Origin: a virus
Virus record (IMG/VR): IMGVR_UViG_3300044899_000002
Coordinates: 1-55,859 of that record
Strand: one strand, 5' to 3'
Length of the DNA stretch: 55,859 nt
The notes below the pieces were generated by a model, which was not told the DNA's origin, did not search any database, and worked only from the letters and a program-made list of their open reading frames with translations. Each line of letters starts with the position of its first letter. Position 1 is the first letter of the stretch. The translations under genes were made by a program, and so were the position numbers. Shown piece by piece: positions 10 through 42,881 of this stretch.

Positions 10-64
10 GGCGGGTCGTTCCCGCCTACACCAGGGACATTACCGTAAATGTCGGGGTTGTCAA
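10..64 (-). promoter_or_regulatory. Class I promoter-hairpin cassette, copy 1
   Basis: Read on the minus strand this is TTGACA (64-59), a 16-nt spacer containing CCCGACATTTACGG, then TAATGT (42-37), then a perfect inverted repeat GGCGGG-AACGA-CCCGCC (26-10) starting about 10 nt after the -10 box. It fires leftward out of the window, so the gene it drives is not visible. It closely matches copies 2-7, 10 and 12. Confidence 0.8.
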
Positions 65-78
65 GCCTTACACGCTGG

Positions 79-297
79 TTATTTCTGGGTGACCAGGCTG
101 CCGGGCTGTCGTAAAGGTGCCGGGTTGGCGGGTACCAAGTTAGCGGGTGCCGGGTGCTTGCGCACCAGGCCGTCCTTGCGCGGTGCCAGGTGCTTGCTGC
201 ACTCGGGGCACGCCACGGCCCCGGCGTAGCGGATGCCGCCGTGGGGACCCCTCCAGGTCACCGACAGCGCCCGCGCGCCGACGCCGGGGCAGTGCAT
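79..297 (-). CDS. Small protein with C-x-x-C motif, function unknown
   Basis: A 72-residue product with one CPEC pair near residue 33 and a basic, proline-rich C-terminal half; it could bind a metal but only two close cysteines are obvious. The ATG at 297 overlaps the stop of the upstream gene (TGATG), so translation is probably coupled; a GTG one codon earlier is possible. Last gene of a three-gene minus-strand group (1030 to 79), ending just before promoter copy 1. No family recognised. Confidence 0.65.
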   Translation of the reverse strand: MHCPGVGARALSVTWRGPHGGIRYAGAVACPECSKHLAPRKDGLVRKHPAPANLVPANPAPLRQPGSLVTQK

Positions 298-542
298 CAC
301 TCGCCGCCGTGCTCGGACGCCGACCCGCCCCAGCGATAGCCGCCGTGCTTGGCCATCGCTGCGAACAGGGGACGGCGGGCGACGTGCCAGCCGACGGGCA
401 GGAACCCGCCCGAGGCCAGGAACCCGTCCAGCGCCTCGAACAGGTCGGCACCGCGCTCCACGTCGCCCTGTGACAGCCGAGAACCGGCCCTCACGCGGGC
501 GACGAGGACGCGCAGCTCGTTCAGCGTCTCGTCGGGGTCCAT
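297..542 (-). CDS. Small protein, function unknown
   Basis: An 81-residue product beginning MDPDETLNELRV. The N-terminal half looks helical, and the C-terminal half is richer in Trp, Gly and aromatic residues. The ATG at 542 overlaps the stop codon of the upstream gene (TAATG) and its own stop overlaps the next start (TGATG), so it sits in the middle of a tightly coupled three-gene unit. A longer reading in this frame exists, but the coupled start is preferred. No family recognised. Confidence 0.7.
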   Translation of the reverse strand: MDPDETLNELRVLVARVRAGSRLSQGDVERGADLFEALDGFLASGGFLPVGWHVARRPLFAAMAKHGGYRWGGSASEHGGE

Positions 543-1030
543 TACCAACCCTGCTGCGCCTGGCTGGTGTCGGTCACCGCGTCGGTGCCCACCACCCGCC
601 CGTAGCGCCCCATCCGCTCGGCCACCGCAGGCTCGCCACCGGGTGCGGCCAGCGCGCGGGTGTCGGTGAACTGGTGGAGCGTGCCCCAGTTCGCCTCGCC
701 GATGAACGCCAGCAGACCCGCCCAGTTGAATCGGCGCGTCTCCTCGCCCGTGACGGCCCACCTGGTGACCTGCGTGCGGCCACGGCCCTCCACCCAGCCA
801 ATGGCGGCGTAGGTGTAGACCTTGCCGGACTGGTACCGGCTGAACATCACGAACTCGGGCAGACCCGCCTCCACGGGCGGCTGCTGGGGTCGTGACGCCT
901 CCAGCTCGGCACGCCGGGCGGCAGCCGCCTGCGTGGCGAGGTCCTTGGCGATGCGGGCAGCCTGGTCGGCCTGCGCCTGGAGCGCGGCGGCGTTGGTGGT
1001 GCTGATGCCGGTGAACGGTGATTCAGCCAT
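542..1030 (-). CDS. Protein of unknown function with N-terminal helical region
   Basis: A 162-residue product. Residues about 10-50 are Ala/Gln/Arg-rich and probably coiled coil; the rest is a mixed domain with several Trp and Tyr residues. The start at 1030 is chosen because AGGAGG lies 7-8 nt upstream, behind a CA-rich ACAACCAC leader seen before several other minus-strand genes. A start at 1090 would run into the tRNA-like element. First gene of a coupled trio. No family recognised. Confidence 0.75.
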   Translation of the reverse strand: MAESPFTGISTTNAAALQAQADQAARIAKDLATQAAAARRAELEASRPQQPPVEAGLPEFVMFSRYQSGKVYTYAAIGWVEGRGRTQVTRWAVTGEETRRFNWAGLLAFIGEANWGTLHQFTDTRALAAPGGEPAVAERMGRYGRVVGTDAVTDTSQAQQGW

Positions 1031-1064
1031 GCGGTTCCTCCTGTGGTTGTGGTTGGTCGTGCGT

Positions 1065-1137
1065 GGACCGAACGGGACTCGAACCCGCATCTCGCACTTA
1101 CGTCGGCTCTATTCCGGGGACTTGAGCTATCGGCCCG
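1065..1137 (-). tRNA. tRNA-like element, non-canonical or decayed
   Basis: On the minus strand a 73-nt stretch has a 7-bp acceptor stem (GGGCCGA with TCGGTCC, one G-U), TA at positions 8-9, a D stem GCTC/GAGC, and a good T arm (GCGGG, loop TTCGAGT, CCCGT). The D loop would be 14 nt, and only 17 nt remain between the D and T stems, so no canonical anticodon arm can be drawn and no amino acid is assigned. CCA is not encoded. It lies in the leader between two minus-strand genes and may be a decayed tRNA, a tRNA mimic or a recombination remnant. Confidence 0.5.
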
Positions 1138-1171
1138 TGTGCGCGTTGTCCGGTCGCGCCCCCGGTAGAAC

Positions 1172-1555
1172 CTAGCCGGGCAGCTCGGCCCCGTCGATGT
1201 GGTTGACCCAGTTGATGACGTGCAACACGTCCAGGCCGTTGGCGCTGTCCAGGTCGATGACCGCCACGCGGTCGCTGGACGCGGTGGCCAGGTTGTGGGC
1301 GCTGCCCGCCACCCACACCGGGGTCATGGTGTGCCAGGAGACGCCGCTGCGGTCGGCGGTGTCGCCCTCGGGGCGGGGCAGGCGGATGCTGCCATCGGTC
1401 AGGCCGATCATCACGTCGAACAGCACGGCCTCGCCGGACTCGATGCGGTCCACGCTGGCCATCTGGCCGGGGATGAGGGGGTAACTGACCCCGCCGTCCT
1501 GGCTGGGTCCACGACGGTCGGCGATGCCGGTGATGATGGCGATGGTGGTGGTCAT
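1172..1555 (-). CDS. Protein of unknown function
   Basis: A 127-residue, probably soluble beta-rich protein of alternating hydrophobic strands. GAGGAG lies 8-9 nt before the ATG at 1555. It is the first gene behind promoter copy 2, and its 5' leader carries the conserved hairpin. The tRNA-like element and a three-gene group follow downstream. No family recognised. Confidence 0.8.
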   Translation of the reverse strand: MTTTIAIITGIADRRGPSQDGGVSYPLIPGQMASVDRIESGEAVLFDVMIGLTDGSIRLPRPEGDTADRSGVSWHTMTPVWVAGSAHNLATASSDRVAVIDLDSANGLDVLHVINWVNHIDGAELPG

Positions 1556-1573
1556 GGGGTTCTCCTCGGTTCG

Positions 1574-1628
1574 GGCGGGTCGTTCCCGCCGGTACGGATG
1601 ACATTACCGTAAATGTCGGGGTTGTCAA
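1574..1628 (-). promoter_or_regulatory. Class I promoter-hairpin cassette, copy 2
   Basis: Minus strand: TTGACA (1628-1623), 16-nt spacer, TAATGT (1606-1601), then GGCGGG-AACGA-CCCGCC (1590-1574), then GAGGAG and the ATG at 1555. The promoter core matches copy 1. Confidence 0.85.
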
Positions 1629-1647
1629 GCCTTGCAACCTGGCAATT

Positions 1648-1794
1648 TCACCAGGTGCCCATCAGCCTCCCCACCGGGACGGCCAGCGGGCACGCGATGA
1701 CGAGCACCGCGCCCACGTCCAGCAGGAACGGCACCCGGCAGCGGTCGCCCGCCAGGACGAGGACCAGGCCGATGGCGAACAGCACCGCGAGCAT
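1648..1794 (-). CDS. Small two-helix membrane protein
   Basis: A 48-residue product made almost entirely of two hydrophobic segments (residues about 2-15 and 23-41) joined by a short charged turn, so it probably sits in the host inner membrane. The ATG at 1794 overlaps the stop of the upstream gene (TGATG). It ends just upstream of promoter copy 2. Role unknown; small membrane proteins in this position can act in exclusion or lysis, but nothing here shows that. Confidence 0.65.
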   Translation of the reverse strand: MLAVLFAIGLVLVLAGDRCRVPFLLDVGAVLVIACPLAVPVGRLMGTW

Positions 1795-1994
1795 CACCAC
1801 GGGACCACCGCCACCAGGACGTTGGGGTTGATGCGGCGGGCGGCGACGAGGCGCAGCAGCATGTCCCGTTGCCACGGGGGCAGCGGCACCGCCTCGGCGA
1901 GCAGGTGGACGCGCAGCTCACCCGGTGCCCAGCCCGTCCAGGACGCCACCCTGCGCGCCCGTAGACGGTGGCGCTGGAGGCGCAGGCGGGCCAT
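1794..1994 (-). CDS. Small basic protein, function unknown
   Basis: A 66-residue, arginine-rich product. The basic N-terminus (about residues 1-16) is followed by a Trp-containing helical region. Start ATG at 1994 and stop at 1794 both overlap neighbours by TGATG, which supports a real coupled gene. No recognised domain; the charge would allow nucleic-acid binding. Confidence 0.65.
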   Translation of the reverse strand: MARLRLQRHRLRARRVASWTGWAPGELRVHLLAEAVPLPPWQRDMLLRLVAARRINPNVLVAVVPW

Positions 1995-2353
1995 CACGGC
2001 ACCGCCAGCAGGAACTCGCTGCGGAGGAGGCACTGGCGGCGGTTGTGCGGCAGCCGGATGCAGAACAGCGGCGTGCCGTCGTTGGTCGCGGTCACCATGC
2101 TGATGGTGCCGCGCTTGCCCGCGTACTCCACCACGTCGCCCACGACGACCGGGGACACCAGCCGCCCCTCGCCCATCGTGCGCCCGCTGATGGCCCGATA
2201 GGCGGCGTCCTGCGCGGCGCGCTTGGTGTCGGTCAGGTGGTCGGCGACGATGCCCGGCCCGGCGACGGTCCACAGGGCGCGGTGGTGGCCGGACTCGGTG
2301 ACGGTGTACGGCCCGGCGAAATACGCGCCGGGGCGCAGGCGGGTCCACTTCAT
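1994..2353 (-). CDS. Protein of unknown function
   Basis: A 119-residue beta-rich protein with a central strand-rich segment (around residues 66-100) that resembles a small barrel, but no family is recognised. Its ATG at 2353 overlaps the upstream stop (TGATG), and its stop overlaps the next start. Second gene of a coupled run 2595-1648. Confidence 0.75.
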   Translation of the reverse strand: MKWTRLRPGAYFAGPYTVTESGHHRALWTVAGPGIVADHLTDTKRAAQDAAYRAISGRTMGEGRLVSPVVVGDVVEYAGKRGTISMVTATNDGTPLFCIRLPHNRRQCLLRSEFLLAVP

Positions 2354-2595
2354 CGCCGCAGTCCTTGGTAGTAGCGGCTGATCTGGACGTTCAGCTCGGC
2401 GATGTTGCGGTCAATCTGCATTGCCGCCGTCTCGTTGGCGATGCGGTCGCCGCCCGAGGTGCGCAGGATGGCGGCGGCGGTGGCCAGCGTCTCCCGTGTC
2501 TTGGTGGCGCGGTTGACGCCCGTGCGGCTGGTGATGGCCTTGGCCGGGTCGGCGACCCTGCTGGCCGTCACTCCTGGCGTGGCTGGTGTGGACAT
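2350..2595 (-). CDS. Small helical protein, function unknown
   Basis: An 81-residue product, Thr/Ala-rich at the N-terminus and helical over residues about 25-80, ending in YYQGLRR. The ATG at 2595 has AGGAGG about 11 nt upstream and the CA-rich ACAACCAC element before that. It starts the coupled run to 1648. No family recognised. Confidence 0.75.
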   Translation of the reverse strand: MSTPATPGVTASRVADPAKAITSRTGVNRATKTRETLATAAAILRTSGGDRIANETAAMQIDRNIAELNVQISRYYQGLRR

Positions 2596-2627
2596 GGTGG
2601 TGGTTCCTCCTGGTGGTTGTGGATGGA

Positions 2628-2810
2628 CTACAGCAGGCGGCTGATGCCGCTGGGGATGCGGGCGGACCCGCCACACCCGCACAGCGTGCGGGCGGCGTAC
2701 TCGGGCGAGGGGCAGCAGGCGTTGGCGTGGAACTCGTCCCACCACTCCTCACGGGTCAGGGCGTTCTCGAACGCCTCGGCCAGGTTGACCTCGGTGCCGC
2801 CGGACCACAT
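2628..2810 (-). CDS. Small cysteine-containing protein, function unknown
   Basis: A 60-residue product with an acidic, aromatic N-terminal half (EEWWDEF) and four cysteines (ACC and CGCGG) in the C-terminal half that could bind a metal. The ATG at 2810 overlaps the stop of the upstream gene (TGATG). No family recognised. Confidence 0.65.
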   Translation of the reverse strand: MWSGGTEVNLAEAFENALTREEWWDEFHANACCPSPEYAARTLCGCGGSARIPSGISRLL

Positions 2811-3013
2811 CAGGCGATCCGCTCGGCCTGCGCGAGCGCGTCACGCGCTGCGGCCATCAGCTCGCCGAACACCTCGGGGGTGTCGGTGAACAGCTCGGCG
2901 CGGTCCACCATGTCGGCGGCGTAGGCCAGCAGACGCGCACGCCGGTCGGCGAGCTGCACGCGCGCCTCGGCGGCGTTGCGGGCGGTGAGCCGGGGGAGTG
3001 AGATGGTGGCCAT
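2810..3013 (-). CDS. Small helical protein, function unknown
   Basis: A 67-residue Ala/Arg/Leu-rich protein, helical across residues 11-65 and probably coiled coil. AAAGGGGG precedes the ATG at 3013. First gene behind promoter copy 3; it is translationally coupled to the following 60-residue gene. Confidence 0.75.
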   Translation of the reverse strand: MATISLPRLTARNAAEARVQLADRRARLLAYAADMVDRAELFTDTPEVFGELMAAARDALAQAERIA

Positions 3014-3036
3014 GTGGCCCCCTTTCGGGTCAGGGC

Positions 3037-3095
3037 GGCGGGTAGGTCCCGCCTGCTGATAGAAACAACTTTACCGTAAAACTCGGGATTGTCAA
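3037..3095 (-). promoter_or_regulatory. Class I promoter-hairpin cassette, copy 3
   Basis: Minus strand: TTGACA (3095-3090), 16-nt spacer with CCCGAGTTTTACGG, TAAAGT (3073-3068), then GGCGGG-ACCTA-CCCGCC (3053-3037) and the ribosome-binding site of the gene starting at 3013. The -10 to hairpin gap is about 14 nt here, against 10-14 nt in the other copies. Confidence 0.85.
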
Positions 3096-3126
3096 ACCCG
3101 AGTTTTCCCGGCCTCGTTTTGCCTGG

Positions 3127-3306
3127 TCAGGCGTTGCAAACCCCCTCGTAGCGGTCGGCGCGCGTGATGCTCGCGCCTCGGTGGTGGGCGCGGCACTCGG
3201 CCCGCGCCTCGTCATAGGTGCCGGTGAACGCCACCGCGAGGTCCTGCCCCTCGGGGCCGACCGTCTCGATGACCCAGAACAGCTCGGCCAGCGCGGCGGT
3301 GCTCAT
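3127..3306 (-). CDS. Small protein, function unknown
   Basis: A 59-residue product with the pattern FWVIETVGPEG...YDEARAECRAHH: a short beta-rich start followed by a helix. Similar short single-domain proteins are common in actinophages, but no function is known to me. The start at 3306 is chosen from the ATGA overlap with the upstream stop. Confidence 0.7.
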   Translation of the reverse strand: MSTAALAELFWVIETVGPEGQDLAVAFTGTYDEARAECRAHHRGASITRADRYEGVCNA

Positions 3307-3509
3307 TTGTCCTCGCCGATGTAGCCCTGGCACTGGAGCACGGGGCCGTAGGCGGGCACCCAGTTCGAGGTGCGCACGATGCTGGCCTCGCCCACCGAGG
3401 TGTAGGCGTCCGAGGCGTCGGTGGCCCGGCGCAGGAACATCGGGTCATAGGACCCGTGCTGTGCCCACACTGCGCCCGTCTCGGGGTTGTGGTGGATGGT
3501 GACGCGCAT
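3303..3509 (-). CDS. Small protein, function unknown
   Basis: A 68-residue product with a beta-rich N-terminus (MRVTIHHNPETG). AGGAGG stands just before the ATG at 3509. It is the first gene behind promoter copy 4 and overlaps the next gene by ATGA. No family recognised. Confidence 0.75.
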   Translation of the reverse strand: MRVTIHHNPETGAVWAQHGSYDPMFLRRATDASDAYTSVGEASIVRTSNWVPAYGPVLQCQGYIGEDK

Positions 3510-3529
3510 GGTGGCCTCCTGGCCTCGGG

Positions 3530-3584
3530 GGCGGGTTGGTCCCGCCTACAAGAACAACAATACCGTAAAACTCGGGATTGTCAA
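3530..3584 (-). promoter_or_regulatory. Class I promoter-hairpin cassette, copy 4
   Basis: Minus strand: TTGACA (3584-3579), 16-nt spacer CCCGAGTTTTACGG, TATTGT (3562-3557), hairpin GGCGGG-ACCAA-CCCGCC (3546-3530). The TGA stop of the upstream gene (3583-3581) lies inside the -35 box. Confidence 0.88.
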
Positions 3585-3736
3585 ACCTCGCCCGCGTTGT
3601 GGGCGTCGGCCATCGTCTGGGCGGCGTGCTCGCGCACGTAGCTCACCGACACCCAGCCACAGGGGCACTCGGCCCGCCAGGGCTGGCGGCTGCCCGCCGG
3701 GGCACCGAACACCCCGGCGGAACACGCCTGCGCCAT
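3581..3736 (-). CDS. Small CPCGW-motif protein, function unknown
   Basis: A 51-residue product with ECPCGW near residue 23 and a helix ending in H-N-A-G. The W..ECPCGW..A...A..H pattern is one I have seen in short actinophage proteins of unknown role; two cysteines could contribute to a zinc site. The ATG at 3736 overlaps the stop of the upstream gene. Its stop codon is embedded in promoter copy 4. Confidence 0.7.
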   Translation of the reverse strand: MAQACSAGVFGAPAGSRQPWRAECPCGWVSVSYVREHAAQTMADAHNAGEV

Positions 3737-4047
3737 CAGGCGACCGCCTGGAGGGCGAGCGTGGCCGTGCTGGCGACGAGTTTGAACGCCCACGCGCTGT
3801 CAAGGGCAGGGATCAGCCCCTCTACGTGGTCCATCAGCACCGAGGTGCCCGCGATGTCGTCCCACGTCCAGGAGAACCCCAGACGCGCGTCCACGACGCG
3901 GTGGCAGCCCTTGCACACCGACCCCTCGCACACGCCGGTCACGGCGGCACCGCAGCACGCGGTGAGCCAGAACCCGACGGCCTGGCCGTCCTCGGCCTGG
4001 ACAGCCAACGAACCGACCTCGGTGGAGGTGATGATGATGGGGGCCAT
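3736..4047 (-). CDS. Putative zinc-ribbon protein, function unknown
   Basis: A 103-residue protein. Residues about 31-49 carry five cysteines (CC...C....C..C) and a histidine, consistent with a zinc ribbon; the C-terminal half is a Trp-containing domain ending in an Ala-rich helix. GAGGAGG precedes the ATG at 4047. First gene behind promoter copy 5. Confidence 0.75.
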   Translation of the reverse strand: MAPIIITSTEVGSLAVQAEDGQAVGFWLTACCGAAVTGVCEGSVCKGCHRVVDARLGFSWTWDDIAGTSVLMDHVEGLIPALDSAWAFKLVASTATLALQAVA

Positions 4048-4081
4048 TTTGGCCTCCTCTCTGCCCCGGCGGGGCGACGGC

Positions 4082-4139
4082 GGCGGGACGGTCCCGCCTG
4101 GTCTGAGAACAACAATACCGTAAAACTCGGGTAAGTCAA
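4082..4139 (-). promoter_or_regulatory. Class I promoter-hairpin cassette, copy 5
   Basis: Minus strand: TTGACT (4139-4134), 16-nt spacer TACCCGAGTTTTACGG, TATTGT (4117-4112), hairpin GGCGGG-ACCGT-CCCGCC (4098-4082). A second small hairpin (GCCCC-GCC-GGGGC, 4075-4063) follows in the leader, close to the ribosome-binding site. Confidence 0.85.
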
Positions 4140-4148
4140 ACCCGCAGG

Positions 4149-4385
4149 TCAGCCCCGGTAAACGCGGGTGATGCTGTACTGCGTGCCGCCCACGATGACC
4201 TGCGCGCGGGTGTAGCGCATCCCGGCGGTCGGGGTGACATCGGTGACCGGGGCGTCCAGGTCGATGCCCTTGGCGGCGTCCCCGATGACCGTGGCCAGCT
4301 CGGCGACGGCGGCGTCAAAGCTGTCGCCCTCGTAGTGGGTAACGGCCAGGTCGGCGTCCAGGGCGGTGGCGGTGTAGGTGATCAT
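4149..4385 (-). CDS. Small protein, function unknown
   Basis: A 78-residue product: beta strand, a central Ala/Val-rich helix (residues about 22-40), then strands. Monocistronic between cassettes 6 and 5. GAGGAG precedes the ATG at 4385. No family recognised. Confidence 0.75.
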   Translation of the reverse strand: MITYTATALDADLAVTHYEGDSFDAAVAELATVIGDAAKGIDLDAPVTDVTPTAGMRYTRAQVIVGGTQYSITRVYRG

Positions 4386-4399
4386 CGTGGCCTCTCCTC

Positions 4400-4454
4400 G
4401 GCGGGTCCGTCCCGCCTATGAGAACAACAATACCGTAAAAGTCGGGATTGTCAA
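4400..4454 (-). promoter_or_regulatory. Class I promoter-hairpin cassette, copy 6
   Basis: Minus strand: TTGACA (4454-4449), 16-nt spacer CCCGACTTTTACGG, TATTGT (4432-4427), hairpin GGCGGG-ACGGA-CCCGCC (4416-4400), then GAGGAG and the ATG at 4385. Confidence 0.88.
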
Positions 4455-4497
4455 ACCCTGGTCAGGATTACACCCCTGACCAGGGCCGACGAGTCGT

Positions 4498-5256
4498 CTA
4501 CCTCGGGCGCTCGCGCCGCACGATGGAGAACAGCAGCCCCTCCACGGTGCGCGTGATGACCTGGTGCGGGCCGGGGTTGGTGCTCGGGTCCATCTTGGGC
4601 ACCTCCTCGTAGGCGCAAGCTGCCAGCGCAGCCGCCCGGCGGAACGCCCACACGTCGCGCTGCTGGGTGATGTCGCGGTTGCGGGTCAGGTAGCCCGCCT
4701 CACCGAGGAGCGCCTGCTGGAGGTGGTACTGGGCGTCCGCCAGCTCGGTCGTCTGCGCGATGCGGACGTGGGCCATTGCGCGCGTCTCATCGCTGGCCAT
4801 GTGGTCGGCGGTGTCGCGGGTGACGTAGAAATCGGCGGCAGGCTCGGCCTCCAGGCGCAGCCCGCCGTCCTCGGTGGGGACACCCTCGGCCAGGATTGCC
4901 TCGGCGGCGTCCACGTCGGGGACCTCGGTGACGGCCTCCTCGGCGACGACCTCGGCCACGTCCAGGCCGAGCTTGTCGGCCAGCAGCGCCCGCATGGTGG
5001 CGGCGGGGATGTCGCCCCAACCCTCGGTCACCGTCTCGGGCCAGCGGTCGGACGGCTTGCCGTTGAACTTGACCGGCACGACCGGGTAGACGGGGGTTCC
5101 GCCGTGGTAGCGGTCGGTGCTGGCCTTGTAGGCGGCGGCGAACGACTTGTGCCAGGTGCCCCCGGTGTAGGCGACGTAGGGCATGGTGCCCGAGCTGCGG
5201 GTGATGGGGTCGGCCTCGGTGCCGGGGACCTGTGCGACGAAAGTGACGGTGGCCAT
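4498..5256 (-). CDS. Protein of unknown function, largest of the left-end set
   Basis: A 252-residue soluble protein. The N-terminal third is beta-rich with many Tyr and Pro; residues about 85-165 are acidic and Ala/Glu-rich; the C-terminal part is helical (ADAQYHLQQALLGEAGYL) and ends in a basic tail. GAGGAG precedes the ATG at 5256. It is the only gene behind promoters 7 and 8, which stand in tandem. No family recognised. Confidence 0.8.
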   Translation of the reverse strand: MATVTFVAQVPGTEADPITRSSGTMPYVAYTGGTWHKSFAAAYKASTDRYHGGTPVYPVVPVKFNGKPSDRWPETVTEGWGDIPAATMRALLADKLGLDVAEVVAEEAVTEVPDVDAAEAILAEGVPTEDGGLRLEAEPAADFYVTRDTADHMASDETRAMAHVRIAQTTELADAQYHLQQALLGEAGYLTRNRDITQQRDVWAFRRAAALAACAYEEVPKMDPSTNPGPHQVITRTVEGLLFSIVRRERPR

Positions 5257-5274
5257 GATTTTCTCCTCTGGTTC

Positions 5275-5329
5275 GGCGGGTTGTTCCCGCCTCTGAGAAC
5301 AACAATACCGTAAAACTCGGGATTGTCAA
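5275..5329 (-). promoter_or_regulatory. Class I promoter-hairpin cassette, copy 7
   Basis: Minus strand: TTGACA (5329-5324), 16-nt spacer CCCGAGTTTTACGG, TATTGT (5307-5302), hairpin GGCGGG-AACAA-CCCGCC (5291-5275), then GAGGAG and the ATG at 5256. Confidence 0.88.
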
Positions 5330-5386
5330 ACCCCAATCGGCACCAATTTCGCGCGAATAAACACCCCACTATTTTGTGGGTCCCCT

Positions 5387-5446
5387 GGTACCGACCCCGG
5401 TGCCCGGCTCCGAGGACCAGTTTACCGTAAAAGTCGGGTAAGTCAA
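5387..5446 (-). promoter_or_regulatory. Promoter copy 8 with a divergent 5' hairpin
   Basis: Minus strand: TTGACT (5446-5441), 16-nt spacer TACCCGACTTTTACGG, TAAACT (5424-5419). The usual GGCGGG hairpin is absent; at the same place is GGCACCG-GGGT-CGGTACC (5404-5387), a 7-bp stem with one G-U. No gene lies between it and promoter copy 7, so it either adds a second start for the 252-residue gene or makes a short RNA. Confidence 0.65.
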
Positions 5447-5470
5447 GGGCCAGTTTCCCGAGGTCGGCGG

Positions 5471-5482
5471 TAGACTGCGGCC
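5471..5482 (+). promoter_or_regulatory. Predicted leaderless promoter -10 box
   Basis: TAGACT (5471-5476) ends 6 nt before the ATG at 5483, and no Shine-Dalgarno is present. This places the transcript start at or next to the start codon. The -35 region is weak. Same geometry as at 8751, 9202, 20478, 23239, 36113, 39617 and 42905. Confidence 0.6.
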
Positions 5483-6067
5483 ATGACCCACCGACTCGTC
5501 TACCTCATCGGCCAGCCTGGCGCGGGTAAGTCCCAGCTCATGGCCCGGTTGACGCTGCCGTTTCAGCGCGTGGCCATCGGCACCGACGAGGCACCCGTGG
5601 CCCATGACCAGCTATGGCGCGCCGTGGACCCCGAGCGCGACACCGCCAGCGACACCCATGAGTGCGTGGGTGCCGAGATCGGCGTGCGCCGTCCCTCGTT
5701 CGGCGGCACCGATGCGCTGCCGTCCTCGGTGATTGACCAGGCCGTCCCCTGGCTGGCCAGCGTGCCGTACCGCCTCCTGCTCGCCGAGGGCGCGCGGCTG
5801 GCCAACCGGCGGTTCCTGGACGCCGCCCTCGGGGCCGGGTACACCGTCACCCTGGTGCTGCTGGACCACGACGACGCCGACGTGTGGCGCAAGCGCCGGG
5901 CCAAGCTCATCGGTCGGGACCAGAACGCCTCATGGGTCAAGGGTCGGCTGACGGCCAGCCGCAACCTGGCCGAGCAATTCCGCAACGTGCCCGGCGTGGC
6001 CGTCATCGTCGGCGCGCCTGACGACGTGTTCGAGCAGGTCCGCAGCGTAATCTCGGGCGATGCCTGA
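5483..6067 (+). CDS. P-loop NTPase/kinase-like protein upstream of terminase
   Basis: A 194-residue protein with a Walker A motif GQPGAGKSQ at residues 10-18. It is followed by a mixed alpha/beta fold and an Arg/Lys-rich helix (residues about 136-157) that could form a lid, as in small kinases of the AAA/zeta-toxin-like class. Substrate unknown. It is the first gene of the rightward virion operon and overlaps the terminase start by 8 nt. A small-terminase role is possible from position, but the P-loop is not typical of small terminases. Confidence 0.85.
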   Translation: MTHRLVYLIGQPGAGKSQLMARLTLPFQRVAIGTDEAPVAHDQLWRAVDPERDTASDTHECVGAEIGVRRPSFGGTDALPSSVIDQAVPWLASVPYRLLLAEGARLANRRFLDAALGAGYTVTLVLLDHDDADVWRKRRAKLIGRDQNASWVKGRLTASRNLAEQFRNVPGVAVIVGAPDDVFEQVRSVISGDA

Positions 6068-13990: not shown

Positions 13991-14257
13991 TCAGGCAGCG
14001 GCAACCACCGCCTCGGTCACCATGTCGTGGGTGATGCCGCCCGCGCCGTAGTTGCGGCGCACCATGCTGGCGCTGACGTACCCGGCGTTGATGCGGGCGG
14101 CGGCACCGAGCGCGTGGGCGACGTTCTTGGGGCTGGCGTCGATGGCCCCGACCTCGAACAGCGCGCGGGCAATCTGGACCTCGATGGTGCTGGCCTCGGT
14201 GTGCGCGATGGCGGTGCGGAACTCGCGGTCAATGTCGGCGGCGGTGTGGATGCTCAT
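13991..14257 (-). CDS. Small helical protein, function unknown
   Basis: An 88-residue Ala-rich protein with three or four helices; the pattern NVAHALGAAARINAGYVSASMVRR could be helix-turn-helix-like but is too weak to call. It is the only gene of a minus-strand island inside the capsid region and has its own class I promoter cassette (copy 10). AGGAG precedes the ATG at 14257. The island must be expressed against the flow of late head transcription. Confidence 0.75.
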   Translation of the reverse strand: MSIHTAADIDREFRTAIAHTEASTIEVQIARALFEVGAIDASPKNVAHALGAAARINAGYVSASMVRRNYGAGGITHDMVTEAVVAAA

Positions 14258-14278: not shown

Positions 14279-14334
14279 GGCGGGCCGTTCCCGCCGAACA
14301 AGGACAACAATACCGTAAAACTCGGGATTGTCAA
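14279..14334 (-). promoter_or_regulatory. Class I promoter-hairpin cassette, copy 10
   Basis: Minus strand: TTGACA (14334-14329), 16-nt spacer CCCGAGTTTTACGG, TATTGT (14312-14307), hairpin GGCGGG-AACGG-CCCGCC (14295-14279), then AGGAG and the ATG at 14257. It stands about 9 kb from the left-end set, inside the head operon. Confidence 0.88.
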
Positions 14335-22550: not shown

Positions 22551-23222
22551 ATGACTCAACCGCAGATGACGCCGCCCGATGACGGCGCAACGCCCACCCC
22601 GGTCGCACCGCTTACCGACGCCGAGCGAGCCGCCGCCACCGCACAGGTCGCAGGCACCGCGCTGCCGGTCACGGGCGCGGTGACGCCGCCGAGCACCGGC
22701 CCGTCGGATGCGGCGTTCGCCGCCGGTACCGACACCGCTGCCGACCAGGCGACCACGCCGCCGGACCCCGCCCCCGTCGTGGCCAACCCGCCCCCGGCCC
22801 CGACCGACAGCCAGGTGGTCAACGCCATCCCCGAGTCCGACACGCCCAGCACCGAGGTCAGCGTCACCGACGACGGCAACGTCATCGTGCTGGCCGAGCG
22901 GTTCGACGTGACGCTGGCGGGCGAGACGTGGCCCTACGGCACCGTTGAGTTCAAGGGCGACCTGTTGGGCATCCGGCTGCCGACGCGCCAGGCGCTCGCG
23001 GCGTTCTCGCTGTCGTCGTCCAAGTACGTCAGCCTCAACGTCAAGAATGACCTGACGGGGCTGTTCATCGCCCGGCACCTGTCCCCCGAGTCCTACGGTC
23101 GGGTGTTCTCGCGGCTGATGGACCCCGACGAGGATGACTACGACGTGGAGACGGTCGGCGAGCTGTTCAACGTCATCGTGATGGCAGCCGTGGACGCAGA
23201 TAAGGCCGACGACGCCGGGTAA
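22551..23222 (+). CDS. Tail assembly chaperone, G type (paralogue A)
   Basis: A 223-residue protein. Residues 1-95 are Pro/Thr/Ala low complexity. Residues about 105-215 form the chaperone-like part, with a beta strand pair, SSSKYVSLNVKND, then LFIARHLSPESYGRVFSRLMDPDED. It sits directly before the tape measure, the usual site of the G chaperone. No downstream T-type reading frame is reachable by frameshift before the tape measure starts 29 nt later. It is clearly similar to the product of 38923-39291 (shared FI..H and R-x-MDPDED motifs). Confidence 0.75.
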   Translation: MTQPQMTPPDDGATPTPVAPLTDAERAAATAQVAGTALPVTGAVTPPSTGPSDAAFAAGTDTAADQATTPPDPAPVVANPPPAPTDSQVVNAIPESDTPSTEVSVTDDGNVIVLAERFDVTLAGETWPYGTVEFKGDLLGIRLPTRQALAAFSLSSSKYVSLNVKNDLTGLFIARHLSPESYGRVFSRLMDPDEDDYDVETVGELFNVIVMAAVDADKADDAG

Positions 23223-23238
23223 TTCGAGGCTGGTGCGA

Positions 23239-23250
23239 TAGCCTGACCAG
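23239..23250 (+). promoter_or_regulatory. Predicted leaderless promoter -10 box
   Basis: TAGCCT (23239-23244) lies 6 nt before the GTG of the tape measure at 23251, with no Shine-Dalgarno. Confidence 0.6.
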
Positions 23251-26200
23251 GTGACCGATGTAGGGAAGATCAGTCTTGGCGTCGAGATCGACGCCAGTGA
23301 CCTGTCCTCCCGCCTCGGTGAGGCCGTGCGTCGGGCTATCGCCCCGGCCCTCGCGCAGATCAACGAGGAGCTGAACAAGGTTCAGCGCGGCTACGAGGAC
23401 ACCGCCAAGTCCGCCGAGCGGTCGGCCACTCGTCAGGTCAACGCACTCAAGCGCGTCCAGCGCCAGGCCGAGCAGACGGCGGCGGCTGTGCGCACCGCCC
23501 AGCAGGCCGGTGGTGGCCCGAACTCGAACAACCCCGCAGGCGGTGGGGGCAATGGCGGCGGTGCCTCGAACGACAACCGCCGGTACGACAACCGCGACAA
23601 CCGCAAGTACGACCAGCGCACGGTGGACAACCGGCGCATCGACAACAGCCGAGACAACAGCCGGGACCAGCGCCGATACGACAACCGGCGCTATAACACC
23701 AGCAACAAGTACGACAACCGCACGATCAACAACACCACCTACGACCACCGGGTTTACAACTACTACGGCCCCGGTGGTCCAGGTCCCAACGGTCCAGGAC
23801 CGGGCGGCGGCAACGGCAACAACCGAGGCGGTGGCGGCGGCGGTCGCGGCGTCCTCGGGATGCTCACCTCACCGCTCGGCCTCAACGGCATCGCGCTCGG
23901 CGCGGCGGCGCTGCCCGCCGTGGCCACGGGCGTGGTCAACATCGTCGGCGCGGTGCAACAGCTTGGACAGGCTGGCCTCGCGCTGCCCGGTATTTTCGCC
24001 GCTGGTGCGGCGTCCATCGGCACGGCGGTCGTCGGGTTCAAGGGTATGGGCGATGCGGTAAAGGCGCTCAACGAGGCCGCTAAGTCCGGCGACATGACCA
24101 AGGCCAACGAGGCGCTGAAAGATATGGACCCCGCCGCGCAGGCGGTGGCGAAAACCGTATCCGGCCTGGTCCAGGGTCCGCTCAAGGAACTCAAGAAAAC
24201 CGTTCAGGGCAAAATGTTCGACGGGTTCGACAAGGACCTACAGTCGGCGGCGGACAAGACACTGCCCCGACTCACCGCCGGGATGGCCAAGACTGGCGAG
24301 GCGTGGAACGGAACTCTCAAGGGCATCACCGGGGCGCTGTCGTCGGACTCGTCGCTCGGGTTCATGGACCGCATTTTCGGCAACACCGCCGAGGGGCAGA
24401 AGCGCGCCAACGCGGCCATTGGCCCGCTCATTCACGGTATGGGCCAGCTCGCCACGACCGGCAGCGATTTCCTGCCCCGCCTCGGCGACGGCATCGCCAA
24501 GGTGGCAAATCGGTTCGATGCGTTCATTACCAAGAATGCCGCCAACGGCAACCTGTTCCGCTGGATTGACGAGGGGCTGAACGGGCTGCGCTCGTTCGGC
24601 AACGCCATCCTCAACGTCGGCAAGTTCATCACCGGCCTGACCAAGGCAGCGGGCCAGGCCAAGGGGTCCCTGTCCGGTGACGGCGGGTTCCTCGGCGGGC
24701 TGGAGCGGTTCACCGGCAAGTGGGCCGATTTCGTCAACAGCCCCGCAGGTCAGAAGCGCCTCGGTGACTTTTTCCAAGGTGGCACGGGCGACCTCGCGCG
24801 CATCGGCGACACGCTAAAAGCCATCTGGCCCGCCATCCGCGAAATCATCGAGGGGTTCCAGACGTGGGGCCGGATCATCGCCCCCATCGTCGGGGCCATC
24901 GCCAACCTCGTCGGCGCGCTGGGCAACGTGCCCGGCCTGCTGGAGGCCATCGTGGTCGGGTTCCTCGCCTGGCGCACCATCGGCGGCATCATCGGCGGCA
25001 TCACCACCAAGCTCGGCGGTGCAACCGGGGCCATCGGCAAGTTCGGCAAGGCGCAGGCGGGTATCGCTGGCCTCGGCATCGCGGCGGCGGGGACCGTGAT
25101 GCAGCAGAACGCGGGCGACAACGTGGGCAGCCAGATCGGCGGCGCGGCCATGACCATCGGCGGCAGCGCGCTGACCGGCGCGATGCTCGGCAGCGTCATC
25201 CCCGGCGTCGGCACCGCCATCGGCGCAGCGGGCGGCGCGGTGGTCGGCACCGGCCTCGCGGCGTACAACGCGCTGCTGAACGAGAACAAGACAGCCAACG
25301 ACAAGGCGGCGGCTGCCGAGGCCGCACGGGCGTCGGCGCTGGAGCGCAGTGCGGCGGCTATGGACATCAGCAAGGCCGGGATGAAATCGGCCACCGACGC
25401 GCTGGCCGAGTCCGGCGGCGTCGTGGACCCGACCGTCCTGGCGGGCGTCGGCCAGCAGGTCAACGCCATCCCCGAGAAACTGGCCGGGGCATACGACGAA
25501 AACACGCTCAAGGGCATCCAGACCGCGCTCGCCGGGGTCAACATGACCACCGAGCAGATGTCCGCGACCATCACCGCCGGGGGTCCCCAGTTCGACGCCC
25601 TCACCGCACGGCTGAACCTCATGGGTCCCGCCGGGCAGATCGCTGCCGCCCAGCTCGCCAGCATCCGCGACAACACGCTGGGCGCTGCGCAGAACGCCAG
25701 CGTGGCCGCGCCGTTGCTCCAGCAGCTCGCCGACAACTACGGCGGCGTGGCCAGCGCGCAGGTGGCCGTCCAGAATGCGTTTGCGGCCATCCCGCAGGAC
25801 GTGCCCATCAACGTCTCGATGCCCGGCCATGAGGCCGTGGAGGAGATTCTGCGCAACATCGGCGCGCAGGTGGACCACAACAAGGACGGCAGCATCATCA
25901 CCAAGGTGCCGCTGGCACCGGACACCATCGCGCAACTGGAGGCCATCGGCGTCAAGGTGCAGCAGAACAAGGACGGCACCATCCAGGTGTCGGTCCCCGA
26001 GGGCCAATACATCGACACCCTCAACAAGCTCAACGTCCTCGGTGACGCCTACAAACGACTGTTCGCTGGCACCCCCGCGCTGCCCAACGTGCCCGCCCCG
26101 CCGTCGAACCCGAACACGCAGGCGGCGGACCCGTTCCAGTTGCCCAAGCCTCCAGGCGGCGCGGACGGCAAGATCATCGGGCGTATGGGCGGCGGCGTGC

Positions 26201-39599: not shown

Positions 39600-39616
39600 T
39601 ATGCGCGCGGACACGA

Positions 39617-40037: not shown

Positions 40038-41170
40038 TGCCGGTATATCGGGGCGCTGGCCCGCTGGTCAAACAGGTGTATCGGGGCGAGTCCCCGGTGC
40101 GCCAGATTTACCGTGGCAACGCCCTGGTGTGGCAGCGCACGGCGGTGTCGGACGGGTTCGACTGGGACGGCTGGCTGGACAACTGGATTAACGAGCTGTG
40201 CAGCGGCGAGGACCTTGGCGACCTGATCAGCGACGGCCTCGGCGGCATCGTGGACGGCCTCGGCAACGTGGTCGGTCAAACCGTCTCGTTCGTGGAGGGC
40301 GGTGCCAACGGCATCGGCACCCTGGTGGCCGACACGGGCACCTCGCTGGTGGACGCCTACTGCGGGGCGTGGGGCGGTGCCTCGCCGCCGGACGGCCTCA
40401 TCGGACTGGTCAACGGCATCCCCATCATCGGCGGGTTCCTGGCCGACTGGCTGGGCGGCAAACTGGACATCACCAGCATCATCGGCAAGGTGCCGGTTAT
40501 CGGCGACATCGCCAAGCAAATCGGCCTGCTGCCCGACGACCTCGGCAACCTGCTGGACCCCATCAACTACGTCATCGACGCCGCTGGCGAGGTCATGGGG
40601 ACCATCACCTGCGGCAAGTACAAGAACATCGGCGGCGGTGCCCTGGAGGGCATCTGTTACGTCATCGGCGTGGTCAACCACGCGGCGCGCGTCATGGTGC
40701 CGGACGGCCTGCTCAACCTGGACAAGCAAGTGGGCCGGATGCGCCACCCCAGCCTCGTCCCGGCGGACGACGGCTGGCTGGAGGTCCAGGTGGCCGAGGC
40801 GGGTATGCCGGGCATGGCCACGCAGGTGTTCCGCCGCTACGCCAACGACGGCAGCGGGGCGCGCGGCGTCGGCATCCACATGGTGGACAACATGGCGGGC
40901 ATCGTGCGGCGCGTCGGCGGCGTGGAAACGGTCGTCAAGCCTGCGCTGGGCGGGTTCGGCCCGACCTCGCGGCTACGCCTCGAACAGCTCGGTAACACCC
41001 ACACCCTGTTCCGCGACGGCATCCCCCTCGGGGACCCGTGGGTGGACGCCACGAACACCGCCGCGAGCGGTGCGAACAACCGCAGCGTGGCGATGGTGAT
41101 GACGGGGGCTAAGGAACTGTGGGGGTCCCGTCGGTTCTCCCCGTCGCTGAACTATCTGGAGGCAGGGTAG
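40037..41170 (+). CDS. Minor tail protein, C-terminal lectin-like domain
   Basis: A 377-residue protein. The N-terminus repeats a YRG motif three times (VYRGAGPLVKQVYRGESPVRQIYRG). The centre is a hydrophobic Gly/Ile-rich region (about 55-215), and the C-terminal 150 residues are beta-rich (RLRLEQLGNTHTLFRDGIPLGD), similar in style to concanavalin-like carbohydrate-binding domains. Last gene of the tail operon. Its 3' end overlaps a convergent minus-strand gene by 62 bp. Confidence 0.7.
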   Translation: MPVYRGAGPLVKQVYRGESPVRQIYRGNALVWQRTAVSDGFDWDGWLDNWINELCSGEDLGDLISDGLGGIVDGLGNVVGQTVSFVEGGANGIGTLVADTGTSLVDAYCGAWGGASPPDGLIGLVNGIPIIGGFLADWLGGKLDITSIIGKVPVIGDIAKQIGLLPDDLGNLLDPINYVIDAAGEVMGTITCGKYKNIGGGALEGICYVIGVVNHAARVMVPDGLLNLDKQVGRMRHPSLVPADDGWLEVQVAEAGMPGMATQVFRRYANDGSGARGVGIHMVDNMAGIVRRVGGVETVVKPALGGFGPTSRLRLEQLGNTHTLFRDGIPLGDPWVDATNTAASGANNRSVAMVMTGAKELWGSRRFSPSLNYLEAG

Positions 41171-41342
41171 TCAGTCGGCCCCCGCCGACGGCGAGGAACC
41201 CGAACCCGACGAGGATGGCACCCCAGCCGTGGACCACGGCCAGGACGAGCACGCCAACGAACACCAGCACCACCGCGTCCAACGGCCATTGCACCGTTGG
41301 ACCCGGCGTGCGACGGCCCCAGCGCAGCGGGATGACGAACAC
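41109..41342 (-). CDS. Small membrane protein, function unknown
   Basis: A 77-residue protein with one long or two short hydrophobic segments (residues about 20-54) and a polar C-terminus. GTG start at 41342 directly follows the stop of the HTH gene. Its last 62 bp overlap, tail to tail, the plus-strand tail gene. No family recognised; existence rests on hydrophobic pattern and coupling. Confidence 0.55.
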   Translation of the reverse strand: MFVIPLRWGRRTPGPTVQWPLDAVVLVFVGVLVLAVVHGWGAILVGFGFLAVGGGRLTTLPPDSSATGRTDGTPTVP

Positions 41343-41552
41343 CTACCGGCCCCCGTGCCAGCCACGGCCAGGACGCTCGGCGTGCCAGGCGTCAATCGTC
41401 TCGGGGAACCAGCCTCGGTGGATGCCCACCTCCACGTCGTGCGGGGGCAGCTTGATGCCGGACAGGCTACGGGCCGACCTCATCCCGAGACGCTGGGCCA
41501 CCTGGTTGGTGGACAGCGCCACGATGACGGTGGGCGCGGTGGTGGCGGTCAT
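41343..41552 (-). CDS. Small HTH DNA-binding protein, excise/MerR-like
   Basis: A 69-residue protein with a helix-turn-helix at about residues 14-30 (STNQVAQRLGMRSARSLSGI) and a wing-like C-terminus with IHRGWFPETIDAWHAERPGRG, as in actinophage excise-type DNA-binding proteins. It is predicted leaderless: the ATG at 41552 lies 7 nt after TAATAT. Probably part of a regulatory switch with the adjacent XRE gene; no integrase was found in the window to pair with. Confidence 0.75.
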   Translation of the reverse strand: MTATTAPTVIVALSTNQVAQRLGMRSARSLSGIKLPPHDVEVGIHRGWFPETIDAWHAERPGRGWHGGR

Positions 41553-41559
41553 GTCCTGG

Positions 41560-41588
41560 ATATTACCCGACGTTTGCGGGTTTGTCTG
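41560..41588 (-). promoter_or_regulatory. Class II promoter with palindromic operator
   Basis: Minus strand: CAGACA (41588-41583), 17-nt spacer, TAATAT (41565-41560), ATG at 41552, so leaderless. The spacer and flanks hold the near-palindrome ACCCG-N7-CGGGT (41565-41581). It overlaps the last codons of the XRE gene. Confidence 0.7.
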
Positions 41589-41964
41589 CACCGACCAGGA
41601 CGATGGGGTGGTCCTGCGTGGCCTCCACCGCAGCGCGCCCGGCGACCAGGCGCAGCCACTCGTCGGCGGCGTTGCCGTCGGTGACCACGGCCAGCGTCAG
41701 CGGGCCGTCGCTCGGGTCCCGGCGGTCGGCCTCGTCCAGGACCATCTCCACCTGGTGGGCAAAATCGTCGGACAGGTCCTCCACCGCGCCGAGCAGGCCG
41801 GGCGGGCAGGCGTCACGGCCCGACTCGATGCGCTGGTAATCGCGCCGGTCCTTGTGCAGCCTCTCGGCCATGTCACGCTGTGACAGGCCGATGAACAGGC
41901 GGTGGGCGCGGATCATCTCGCCGAGGCCGTGGGTGTACGTCTCGGGCGTCTGGGGGTTGGGCAT
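41563..41964 (-). CDS. XRE-family HTH regulator
   Basis: A 133-residue protein. HTH at about residues 17-45 (HRLFIGLSQRDMAERLHKDRRDYQRIESGRD) of the Cro/CI type; the C-terminal half is a separate alpha/beta-like domain. GAGGAG precedes the ATG at 41964, behind a CA-rich leader. It lies next to a class II promoter and is the best candidate in the window for the protein that recognises the shared operator. Confidence 0.85.
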   Translation of the reverse strand: MPNPQTPETYTHGLGEMIRAHRLFIGLSQRDMAERLHKDRRDYQRIESGRDACPPGLLGAVEDLSDDFAHQVEMVLDEADRRDPSDGPLTLAVVTDGNAADEWLRLVAGRAAVEATQDHPIVLVGADKPANVG

Positions 41965-42001
41965 GGTGTTCTCCTCGGGTTGTGGTGGGTGGAACGGGGG
42001 T

Positions 42002-42028
42002 GGCCCCGGCGGGGTGTCCGCCGGGGCC
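42002..42028 (-). terminator. Hairpin between zinc-finger and XRE genes
   Basis: A perfect 11-bp stem GGCCCCGGCGG/CCGCCGGGGCC with a 5-nt loop, in the 82-nt gap after the stop of the gene at 42047. It could terminate the upstream minus-strand transcript before the XRE gene or attenuate it. Confidence 0.7.
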
Positions 42029-42046
42029 GTGGAGCGGTGTGGCGGG

Positions 42047-42805
42047 TTACCACCCGGCCTTGGCGGCGCAGATGGGGCCGATGCCCCGAGCGCGGCTGTC
42101 GTCGTTGGTGAGGGTGCGCCCGCACATCCCGCACTCGCCGACCTCATGGCCGTAGCGGGCGGACGCCGCCTCGGCACCGACGGCGGCGATCTTGCGCAGG
42201 ATGGCGTCCCCGGCGGCGCGGCTCATCCGCTGTTCCTCGTCGGACACCATCAGCTTGACGAACACGTAACCGGCCCACTTGCCCTCGGTCGGGCGGTCCA
42301 CCTTGTAGAACGCCACGGCGTTGGTCGCGCCGTCCTCGGTGTCCACCGCGTAGCGCCCGGCGGGCACGACCTCGGCGGACGGGCGGTCGGTGCTGACGGG
42401 CAGCTCGGCGTCGGCCTTGGGGGCGTCGGCGTCCAGCGAGAACAGCCACTCGATGAGCTTGGACGCGCCCGCCTTGGTCAGCGGCGCGTAGCAGTAGGCC
42501 ATCTCGGGGGCTGCCTCGGCGGCGAGGTGGGCCAGCAGCGCGTTGACGCGCTCGCCGTAGGTGGACGACCGGCCCACGGTGCCGTTGATGACGCGGCTGA
42601 TGGCGGGCGGGGTGGCGTCGTCCATCGGGGCCAGCGCCCACGCGGTGACGGTGTTGATGACCGCCGCGCGGCTGATGTACTTGTCCGCGCCGACGACCGA
42701 GCGCCAGGTGCCGCGCTCCAGCGCCGGGACGATGGCCCGAGTGATCTGCGCATCGGTGGCGGCGTCGGCGGGGCGGGCGGCGTTGGTGTTGAAAGGTGAG
42801 GCCAT
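42047..42805 (-). CDS. Protein with C-terminal zinc finger (DUF6011-like)
   Basis: A 252-residue protein. Helical N-terminal two thirds; residues about 150-205 beta-rich. The C-terminal ECGMCGRTL...GIGPICAAKAGW is the short zinc finger seen in DUF6011 phage proteins. It is driven by class I cassette 12. Function unknown; the finger could bind nucleic acid. Confidence 0.8.
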   Translation of the reverse strand: MASPFNTNAARPADAATDAQITRAIVPALERGTWRSVVGADKYISRAAVINTVTAWALAPMDDATPPAISRVINGTVGRSSTYGERVNALLAHLAAEAAPEMAYCYAPLTKAGASKLIEWLFSLDADAPKADAELPVSTDRPSAEVVPAGRYAVDTEDGATNAVAFYKVDRPTEGKWAGYVFVKLMVSDEEQRMSRAAGDAILRKIAAVGAEAASARYGHEVGECGMCGRTLTNDDSRARGIGPICAAKAGW

Positions 42806-42825
42806 GATCGGGTCCTATCTGCGAG

Positions 42826-42881
42826 GGCGGGCCATTCCCGCCGAACAAGGACCACATTACCGTAAACGTCGGGATTGTCAA
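42826..42881 (-). promoter_or_regulatory. Class I promoter-hairpin cassette, copy 12
   Basis: Minus strand: TTGACA (42881-42876), 16-nt spacer CCCGACGTTTACGG, TAATGT (42859-42854), hairpin GGCGGG-AATGG-CCCGCC (42842-42826), then AGGA and the ATG at 42805. It is divergent from the lysis promoter 24 nt away. Confidence 0.88.

Follow-up and report, generated by a model that had tools for sequence, protein, structure and literature searches.

On one strand of the mycobacteriophage analysed here, almost all small operons are headed by a module in which a promoter is followed by a short inverted repeat, and the latter is very probably a cis-acting RNA hairpin. This hairpin points to an undescribed 5′ RNA control element in phage messages. 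The window (the whole stretch of 55,859 nucleotides that was analysed) represents part of the genome of a Cluster B mycobacteriophage (Bclasvirinae), with Imvubu as its closest relative. Cluster B is among the largest sequenced phage groups, and no description of a Cluster B leader element or promoter family was found in the open-access literature, subscription journals being mostly outside the scope of the search. Rfam families gave no match in the window above their gathering cut-offs. The first-pass annotation had listed nine promoter-plus-hairpin copies, and all nine are present on the minus strand at the following coordinates:

Module 1, 10 to 64, minus strand: promoter 64-37 (TTGACA-16-TAATGT), hairpin 26-10 (GGCGGG AACGA CCCGCC); the downstream gene lies beyond the window end.
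Module 2, 1574 to 1628, minus strand: promoter 1628-1601, hairpin 1590-1574, loop AACGA; heads ORF 1172-1555 (minus strand), DUF7280.
Module 3, 3037 to 3095, minus strand: promoter 3095-3068 with −10 box TAAAGT, 14-nt gap, hairpin 3053-3037, loop ACCTA; heads ORF 2810-3013 (minus strand).
Module 4, 3530 to 3584, minus strand: promoter 3584-3557, hairpin 3546-3530, loop ACCAA; heads ORF 3303-3509 (minus strand).
Module 5, 4082 to 4139, minus strand: promoter 4139-4112 (TTGACT), hairpin 4098-4082, loop ACCGT; heads ORF 3736-4047 (minus strand).
Module 6, 4400 to 4454, minus strand: promoter 4454-4427, hairpin 4416-4400, loop ACGGA; heads ORF 4149-4385 (minus strand).
Module 7, 5275 to 5329, minus strand: promoter 5329-5302, hairpin 5291-5275, loop AACAA; heads ORF 4498-5256 (minus strand).
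Module 8, 14279 to 14334, minus strand: promoter 14334-14307, hairpin 14295-14279, loop AACGG; heads ORF 13991-14257 (minus strand), DUF7185; sits within the rightward structural region.
Module 9, 42826 to 42881, minus strand: promoter 42881-42854, hairpin 42842-42826, loop AATGG; heads ORF 42047-42805 (minus strand), DUF6011.
Behind ORF 42047-42805 in the operon headed by module 9, 41563 to 42177, minus strand: Xre-type HTH protein (PF13560 HTH_31, E 5.5e-06).

The component motifs were likewise as had been described, since TTGACA/TTGACT, the 16-nt spacer with CCCGA..TTTACGG, the TAnnGT box and GGCGGG-A-N4-CCCGCC each occur in 9/9 copies, and the gap from the −10 box to the stem is 10–14 nt in these nine. 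Perfect GGCGGGN5CCCGCC matches number nine in the window, compared with 0.08 expected from dinucleotide shuffles, and six TTGACA/TATAAT-like promoters were found in positions 1-6000 against 0.3 expected. Two further members of the promoter family were identified:

5419 to 5446, minus strand: tenth family promoter, TTGACT-16-TAAACT, without the GGCGGG hairpin.
50218 to 50245, minus strand: diverged family promoter, TAGACAATCCCGACCCTTACGGGTAACG, with six mismatches to the consensus and without the hairpin.

The CCCGA..TTTACGG spacer belongs to a 25-bp dyad that reaches from the −35 into the −10 box, and holds the same position in every module promoter:

5302 to 5326, no strand: example of the 25-bp dyad, ACAATCCCG-N7-CGGTATTGT, −35 to −10.

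Across 100 promoters the dyad arms match at a mean of 7.0 of 9 positions, as opposed to 3.0 or fewer when one arm was slid. The promoter dyad of the Bclasvirinae is an element separate from the hairpin and is probably an operator, and the Xre-type HTH protein encoded at 41563-42177 is a candidate for its binder.

Conservation of the stem was analysed in 149 module sites from 25 genomes, the outer three stem pairs being unused in site selection. These outer pairs are paired in 97, 100 and 100% of the sites, compared with 51, 47 and 49% of 1,839 other GGGN5CCC sites, although the module sites share ancestry and the counts are therefore not independent events. Substitutions in the stem comprise A-U, U-A and C-G swaps together with G-U pairs, and one of the outer pairs is mismatched in a few individual copies. 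Three of the six pairs are altered on both sides, so that the independent changes are few, and 98.5% of cells pair. Moreover, the covariation score of the stem was reached by none of 500 shuffles, and every slid control scored lower. The proposal that the stem is under selection as RNA is borne out by these two-sided changes, the covariation and the G-U pairs, by a rare hairpin variant with a 3-nt loop, and by the orientation of the loop sequence; homologues that had lost the stem without compensation were sought, and no case was found.

Read in the direction of transcription, the loop is A-N-N-G-N at 138 of the 149 sites, and among pentaloops across the subfamily A is first in 88/89 and G fourth in 85/89. 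The earlier statement that four of the five loop bases vary is thus correct for the nine copies in the window but does not extend to the subfamily. Six-base-pair stems with ANNGN loops lie ahead of a ribosome-binding site and start codon in 124/179 cases, compared with 19/179 when these stems are read on the opposite strand, and a promoter-plus-hairpin search of IMG/VR returned 74 stretches as against seven with the loop reversed. Because this loop rule is oriented, the hairpin is tied to one strand and a symmetric DNA operator is disfavoured; the first-pass annotation had left the choice between an RNA stem and a palindromic DNA site, and for the hairpin it is the RNA stem that is favoured. 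A phage repressor that binds a palindromic operator around +5 to +21 would account for the perfectly palindromic arms, and both the Xre-type HTH proteins encoded by the phage and the operator-like dyad within the promoter itself lend it some appeal. However, the loop asymmetry follows the direction of transcription (124 versus 19), the occurrence of both 3- and 5-nt loops would leave the half-sites rotated, G-U pairs are present, and the hairpin is common to phages with unrelated promoters. The DNA operator was rejected for the hairpin as very improbable. The fixed loop bases favour a protein reader, and the loop is somewhat more probably protein-read than otherwise; the constancy of A1 and G4 may also have a purely structural cause.

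The 57-nt module was matched by 342 Mycobacterium phage records; fifteen Bclasvirinae genomes carry it, and no complete genome of the subfamily that was examined is without it. Searches of the TM4 and Giles genomes found it absent. The hairpin also lies behind other promoter types and, as judged from sequence comparison, travels independently of promoter type. In Skog, an unrelated 152-kb Gordonia phage, an unbiased search found that 8/8 qualifying hairpins have ANNGN pentaloops, four of the eight with the compensated stem GGCGAG/CTCGCC. An IMG/VR scan for the hairpin with a ribosome-binding site gave at least 117 matches.

The claim that the hairpin lies between the predicted +1 and the ribosome-binding site agrees with the spacing from the −10 box, by which alone the transcript start was placed. 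On this basis the hairpin starts approximately 4 to 9 nt past the predicted transcript start, and the median distance from its end to the start codon is 19 nt. The number of unpaired 5′ nucleotides, predicted from the same −10 spacing, is 3–5 in 48/81 modules and 6–8 in 31/81; in about one-third of copies the predicted unpaired leader is 7–8 nt, which is long for a classical 5′-end shield. RNA folding placed the hairpin in the centroid structure of 8/8 leaders. Two apparently leaderless promoters of the family, Oline 61390 and Funsized 20124, are without the hairpin. These data bear on whether the element is a plain 5′ mRNA stabiliser, in which the stem alone would block 5′-end-dependent decay (pyrophosphate removal, sensing of the 5′ end by RNase E, RNase J) and the loop would have no reader. 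The stable GC stem, its location a few nucleotides past the predicted +1 and its absence from the two apparently leaderless promoters are consistent with such a role, as is the ability of stem-loops at the 5′ end to stop RppH, RNase E and RNase J in E. coli and Bacillus (PMC3997798). A plain stabiliser nevertheless leaves unexplained why A1 and G4 are retained in 138/149 sites despite changes in the letters of the stem, and it sits poorly with the 7–8 predicted unpaired nucleotides of many copies and with the observation that RNase E sensitivity in M. smegmatis does not correlate with 5′ structure (PMC10641625). We regard it as possible but doubtful.

The explanation that we favour, with some reserve, is a two-part cassette comprising a promoter with an operator dyad and a protein-read leader hairpin that is protective or licensing. 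The first part is a host-sigma-type promoter, whose 25-bp dyad probably serves a phage DNA-binding protein as its operator; the second is very probably a cis-acting RNA element with a 6-bp stem and an A-N-N-G-N loop near the predicted 5′ end. The loop would be read by an RNA-binding protein, which is likelier to be host-encoded than phage-encoded because the unrelated Gordonia phage has the same loop rule. Bound in this way, the hairpin may shield the 5′ end from decay and/or keep the leader accessible to ribosomes or to RNA polymerase, and small non-structural operons would consequently be expressed strongly and in step. A net effect that is stabilising or activating, not repressing, falls just short of an even chance, and the M. 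smegmatis result counts against this explanation, as does the 7–8-nt unpaired leader predicted for about one-third of copies. Two ideas were dropped: a phage-encoded ‘RNase E’ (Imvubu gp68) as partner, which had no Pfam match, and a CsrA-type ANGGA loop, which fits only some of the loops.

A hairpin of this kind could instead act on the nascent RNA as an antiterminator, a boxB- or put-like element loading a phage or host factor onto RNA polymerase. The small stem, the pentaloop with two fixed bases and the promoter-near position at many operons of one strand are in keeping with this, and leader hairpins do recruit NusG-type factors, as for LoaP (PMC12691694). However, the loop is not GNRA-like, having A first and a free last base, and the two terminator-like sites in positions 1-6000 represent chance level, one of them lying downstream of a hairpin-less promoter. 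Antitermination is considered unlikely.

A conserved A and G at loop positions 1 and 4 are also features of ANTAR targets (PMC3369931, PMC8164766), and the A1/G4 loop might be the docking site of an ANTAR response regulator of the host, in mycobacteria PdtaR, which would link the leader to host signalling or antitermination. The module loops share this feature (88/89 and 85/89, with both bases in 138/149), and EutV contacts single loops, the minimal motif having been redefined to one hexaloop (PMC8934654). An ANTAR gene was found in 0/18 phage records by a search that recovers one in a bacterial genome, so an ANTAR reader would have to be the host's. Against such a reader, the module loops are 5 nt, rarely 3, where a hexaloop is required, and a second A1/G4 hairpin occurs in 2/138 leaders compared with 4.9 expected, whereas ANTAR targets are two tandem stem-loops joined by a short linker; NasR binds a single hairpin approximately tenfold more weakly (PMC7496416). 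The closing pair is G-C in 44/44 distinct hairpins, the inner pairs having been partly used in site choice, whereas NasR selection yielded C:G (PMC7496416). Membership of the ANTAR class was rejected on the pentaloop, the single hairpin and the G-C closing pair, and ANTAR docking is judged improbable. A broader and rather speculative idea is that unrelated actinophages have independently come to recruit the same host RNA-binding regulator (PdtaR or some other ANTAR protein, or a different factor) via a single 5′ A1/G4 pentaloop hairpin, which would define a host-factor-dependent class of cis-acting RNA common to Mycobacterium, Tsukamurella and Gordonia phages.

If the two-part cassette is correct, the promoters, leaders and predicted transcript starts of some 340 sequenced phages can be listed at once. 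It would also lend itself to a clean test by mutation, in which the stem is broken and compensated and loop bases A1 and G4 are changed, and would offer a route to a mycobacterial RNA-binding factor on which phages depend. The promoter-plus-leader cassettes could also become mycobacterial expression parts.

Short motifs upstream of many mycobacteriophage genes are already known as the Cluster K SAS/ESAS, the Cluster A stoperators and the Cluster O 17-bp repeats. Allowing up to two mismatches, neither the Cluster K SAS (13-bp GGGATAGGAGCCC, at start codons) nor the Cluster O repeat occurs in the window; the Cluster A stoperator (13-bp GGTGGMTGTCAAG, intergenic) has no exact or one-mismatch match there, and its 12 two-mismatch matches all lie away from the modules. 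Among RNA elements, the boxB of lambdoid nut sites is likewise a short pentaloop hairpin behind early promoters, but the phage module has an A-N-N-G-N loop that is not GNRA-like and stands only once in each operon, near +5. LoaP leader hairpins are similarly small and protein-read, as is proposed here, but serve long operons and, unlike the module, combine a UNCG-type loop with a downstream intrinsic terminator. The ANTAR targets of the eut, nasF and amiE leaders and of actinobacteria are also small leader stem-loops with A1/G4, near the ribosome-binding site in actinobacteria, whereas the phage hairpin lies very close to the predicted +1. Finally, the 5′ stabilising hairpins of ompA, papA and B. 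subtilis resemble the phage element in placing a stable stem a few nucleotides from the start of an untranslated leader; the phage modules differ in their fixed loop bases, in their 3–8 predicted unpaired 5′ nucleotides and in being present as many near-identical copies per genome.

The window, a virus contig of 55,859 bases, matches Cluster B mycobacteriophages (subfamily Bclasvirinae) at the DNA level and is part of a genome of ∼ 70 kb. Mycobacterium phage Imvubu is the nearest phage, at 85% identity across 73% of the window's first 25 kb. Small leftward genes at the left end are followed by rightward nucleotide-kinase, terminase and structural genes, and then by leftward regulatory and replication genes arranged as in Imvubu. 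ARAGORN predicts a tRNA-Ser (cga) on the plus strand at 52560-52649, which overlaps a long minus-strand ORF (50951-53866) and may be a false positive. Imvubu gene 68 (22988-23692 of the phage record, L011) is annotated 'Rnase E', yet has no Pfam match.

The nine copies of a promoter-hairpin module reported in the first-pass annotation are all present exactly as described. Perfect GGCGGGN5CCCGCC occurs nine times against 0.08 expected, and the end of the -10 box lies 41-64 nt upstream of a plausible start codon with a ribosome-binding site (RBS) in each copy whose gene lies in the window. The following promoter features also lie in the window.

5302-5326: 25-bp dyad from -35 to -10, in the same place in each module
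5446, minus strand: tenth family promoter, without hairpin
50218-50245, minus strand: diverged family promoter (TAGACA...), without hairpin, preceding a leftward ORF region that ends near 50.2 kb

Immediately 3' of the promoter at 5446 (5380-5420, minus strand) lies a nearly invariant stretch of ∼ 30 nt, GAGCCGGrCrCCGGGGkCGGTACCAGGGG, common to the window, Imvubu, B4 phages and one B2-like contig. As a terminator-like hairpin (5380-5365) follows this stretch in the window, a short non-coding RNA of ∼ 65 nt is possible; an Rfam search of the conserved stretch gave no match.

The 57-nt module used as a query matched 342 Mycobacterium phage records. Whole genomes of 15 Bclasvirinae phages were compared, together with Tsukamurella phage TPA2, Gordonia phage Skog, TM4, Giles and several IMG/VR contigs. 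A promoter-first search that left out hairpin information recovered 100 family promoters, 83 of which are followed by a stem with at least 5.5 of 6 pairs. The hairpin is kept in Quesadilla and LilMcDreamy despite diverged -35 boxes, and in several subclusters it stands behind another, TATAAC-type promoter, at the leftward replication operon. This is a real, widely conserved regulatory module. Five family promoters without the hairpin (Adawi 46189, Zemanar 47538, Stinger 46101, Bane1 47214 and phi1_186018 45187) have downstream another conserved inverted repeat, of the CCAGGGCCTGCCACCTGG type.

The stem had been proposed to be selected in RNA or, alternatively, to be a palindromic DNA site. In a non-circular test, GGGN5CCC sites preceded by a -10-like box and followed by an RBS and start codon were scored at three flanking positions, which pair in 97, 100 and 100% of 149 module-type sites, against 51, 47 and 49% of 1,839 other GGGN5CCC sites. 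Stem variants include AGCGGG/CCCGCT, GCCGGG/CCCGGC, GTCGGG/CCCGAC and GACGGG/CCCGTC, and GGCGAG/CTCGCC in Skog. In a set of 44 distinct hairpins, 98.5% of cells pair, both sides are altered at three of the six stem pairs, and the covariation score is equalled by no shuffle and no slid control; as the sequences are related, these figures do not represent independent events. Stem pairs 1 and 3 can be G-U, and a variant with a 3-nt loop, GGCGGGAGACCCGCC, is found in Subcluster B1. The flanking pairs and the covariation favour the first proposal; we read the hairpin as RNA rather than DNA, a reading well supported by these comparisons.

The loop also obeys a rule. In transcript orientation, base 1 is A in 88 of 89 promoter-linked pentaloops and base 4 is G in 85 of 89 (ANNGN). 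Of 179 perfect 6-bp stems with such a loop, 124 are followed by an RBS and a start codon, against 19 of 179 when the stems are taken on the opposite strand. Across IMG/VR, promoter and hairpin occur together in 74 stretches with ANNGN and in seven with the reversed loop, some of which fit both patterns because these can overlap (e.g. ACGGT). A reversed-loop control also picked up other phages, in seven IMG/VR records (L214, L217, L232, L237, L242, L245 and L252), where GGGCGGGGCAATCCCGCCC hairpins are repeated immediately 5' of the RBS and often have a T-rich 3' side. With stem letters and loop length both left free, all eight hairpins returned from Skog are ANNGN pentaloops, as are seven of eight in TPA2; TPA2 has genes related to Cluster B, which makes Skog the stronger independent example. 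The hairpin search found none in TM4 or Giles.

In most copies, 10, 11 or 14 nt separate the -10 box from the stem. If +1 is placed at a purine that follows a pyrimidine and lies 6-9 nt beyond the -10 box, 48 of 81 modules have a predicted unpaired 5' leader of 3-5 nt and 31 have one of 6-8 nt. The median distance from the end of the stem to the start codon is 19 nt. At Oline 61390 and Funsized 20124, family promoters without the hairpin, an ATG lies directly at the predicted 5' end, as for leaderless messages. The most likely reading of the hairpin is a leader RNA element that acts in cis. That loop bases are constant while stem letters can be exchanged suggests a loop-reading protein, and the occurrence of the hairpin in unrelated phages suggests that this reader would come from the host. 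The function of the module is one that we infer: a host protein would bind the loop in the leader RNA, and 5'-end protection would be the most natural effect (PMC3997798). In M. smegmatis, RNase E sensitivity was unrelated to 5' structure (PMC10641625), so that shielding of the 5' end by the hairpin is proposed with only moderate confidence.

The promoter itself contains symmetry. TTG-ACAATCCCG-N7-CGGTATTGT and the B1/B4 form, TTG-ACTTACCCG-N7-CGGGTAAGT, are one 25-bp dyad, the arms of which match at 7.0 of 9 positions on average and at no more than 3.0 with one arm slid; across subclusters they alternate between ACAAT.CCG and ACTTACCCG types. The dyad centre keeps a constant distance from -35, whereas the -10 spacing ranges over 16-18, the behaviour expected for an operator. 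The operon behind the module at 42826-42881 includes an Xre-type HTH gene, whose product is a candidate dyad binder.

Comparison with known elements indicates that this regulatory module of Cluster B is apparently undescribed so far. The window lacks the SAS of Cluster K and the repeats of Cluster O, the best stoperator copies there have two mismatches, no Rfam family matched the window, and a search of the open literature found no description of such an element in Cluster B; for B1, one paper mentions an AT-rich region upstream that 'likely contains control sequences' (PMC3029335). Judged by the letters of the loop, ANTAR targets come closest, with A1 and G4 within a hexaloop (PMC3369931, PMC8164766, PMC8934654); the phage hairpin shares A1 and G4 but has a pentaloop, and its closing pair does not fit. 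A second A1/G4 hairpin in the leader was seen in 2 of 138 cases against 4.9 expected, and a search for ANTAR genes, whose positive control worked, found none in 18 phage records. Membership was rejected on loop length, second hairpin and closing pair; although not classed as an ANTAR target, the phage hairpin may work like one.
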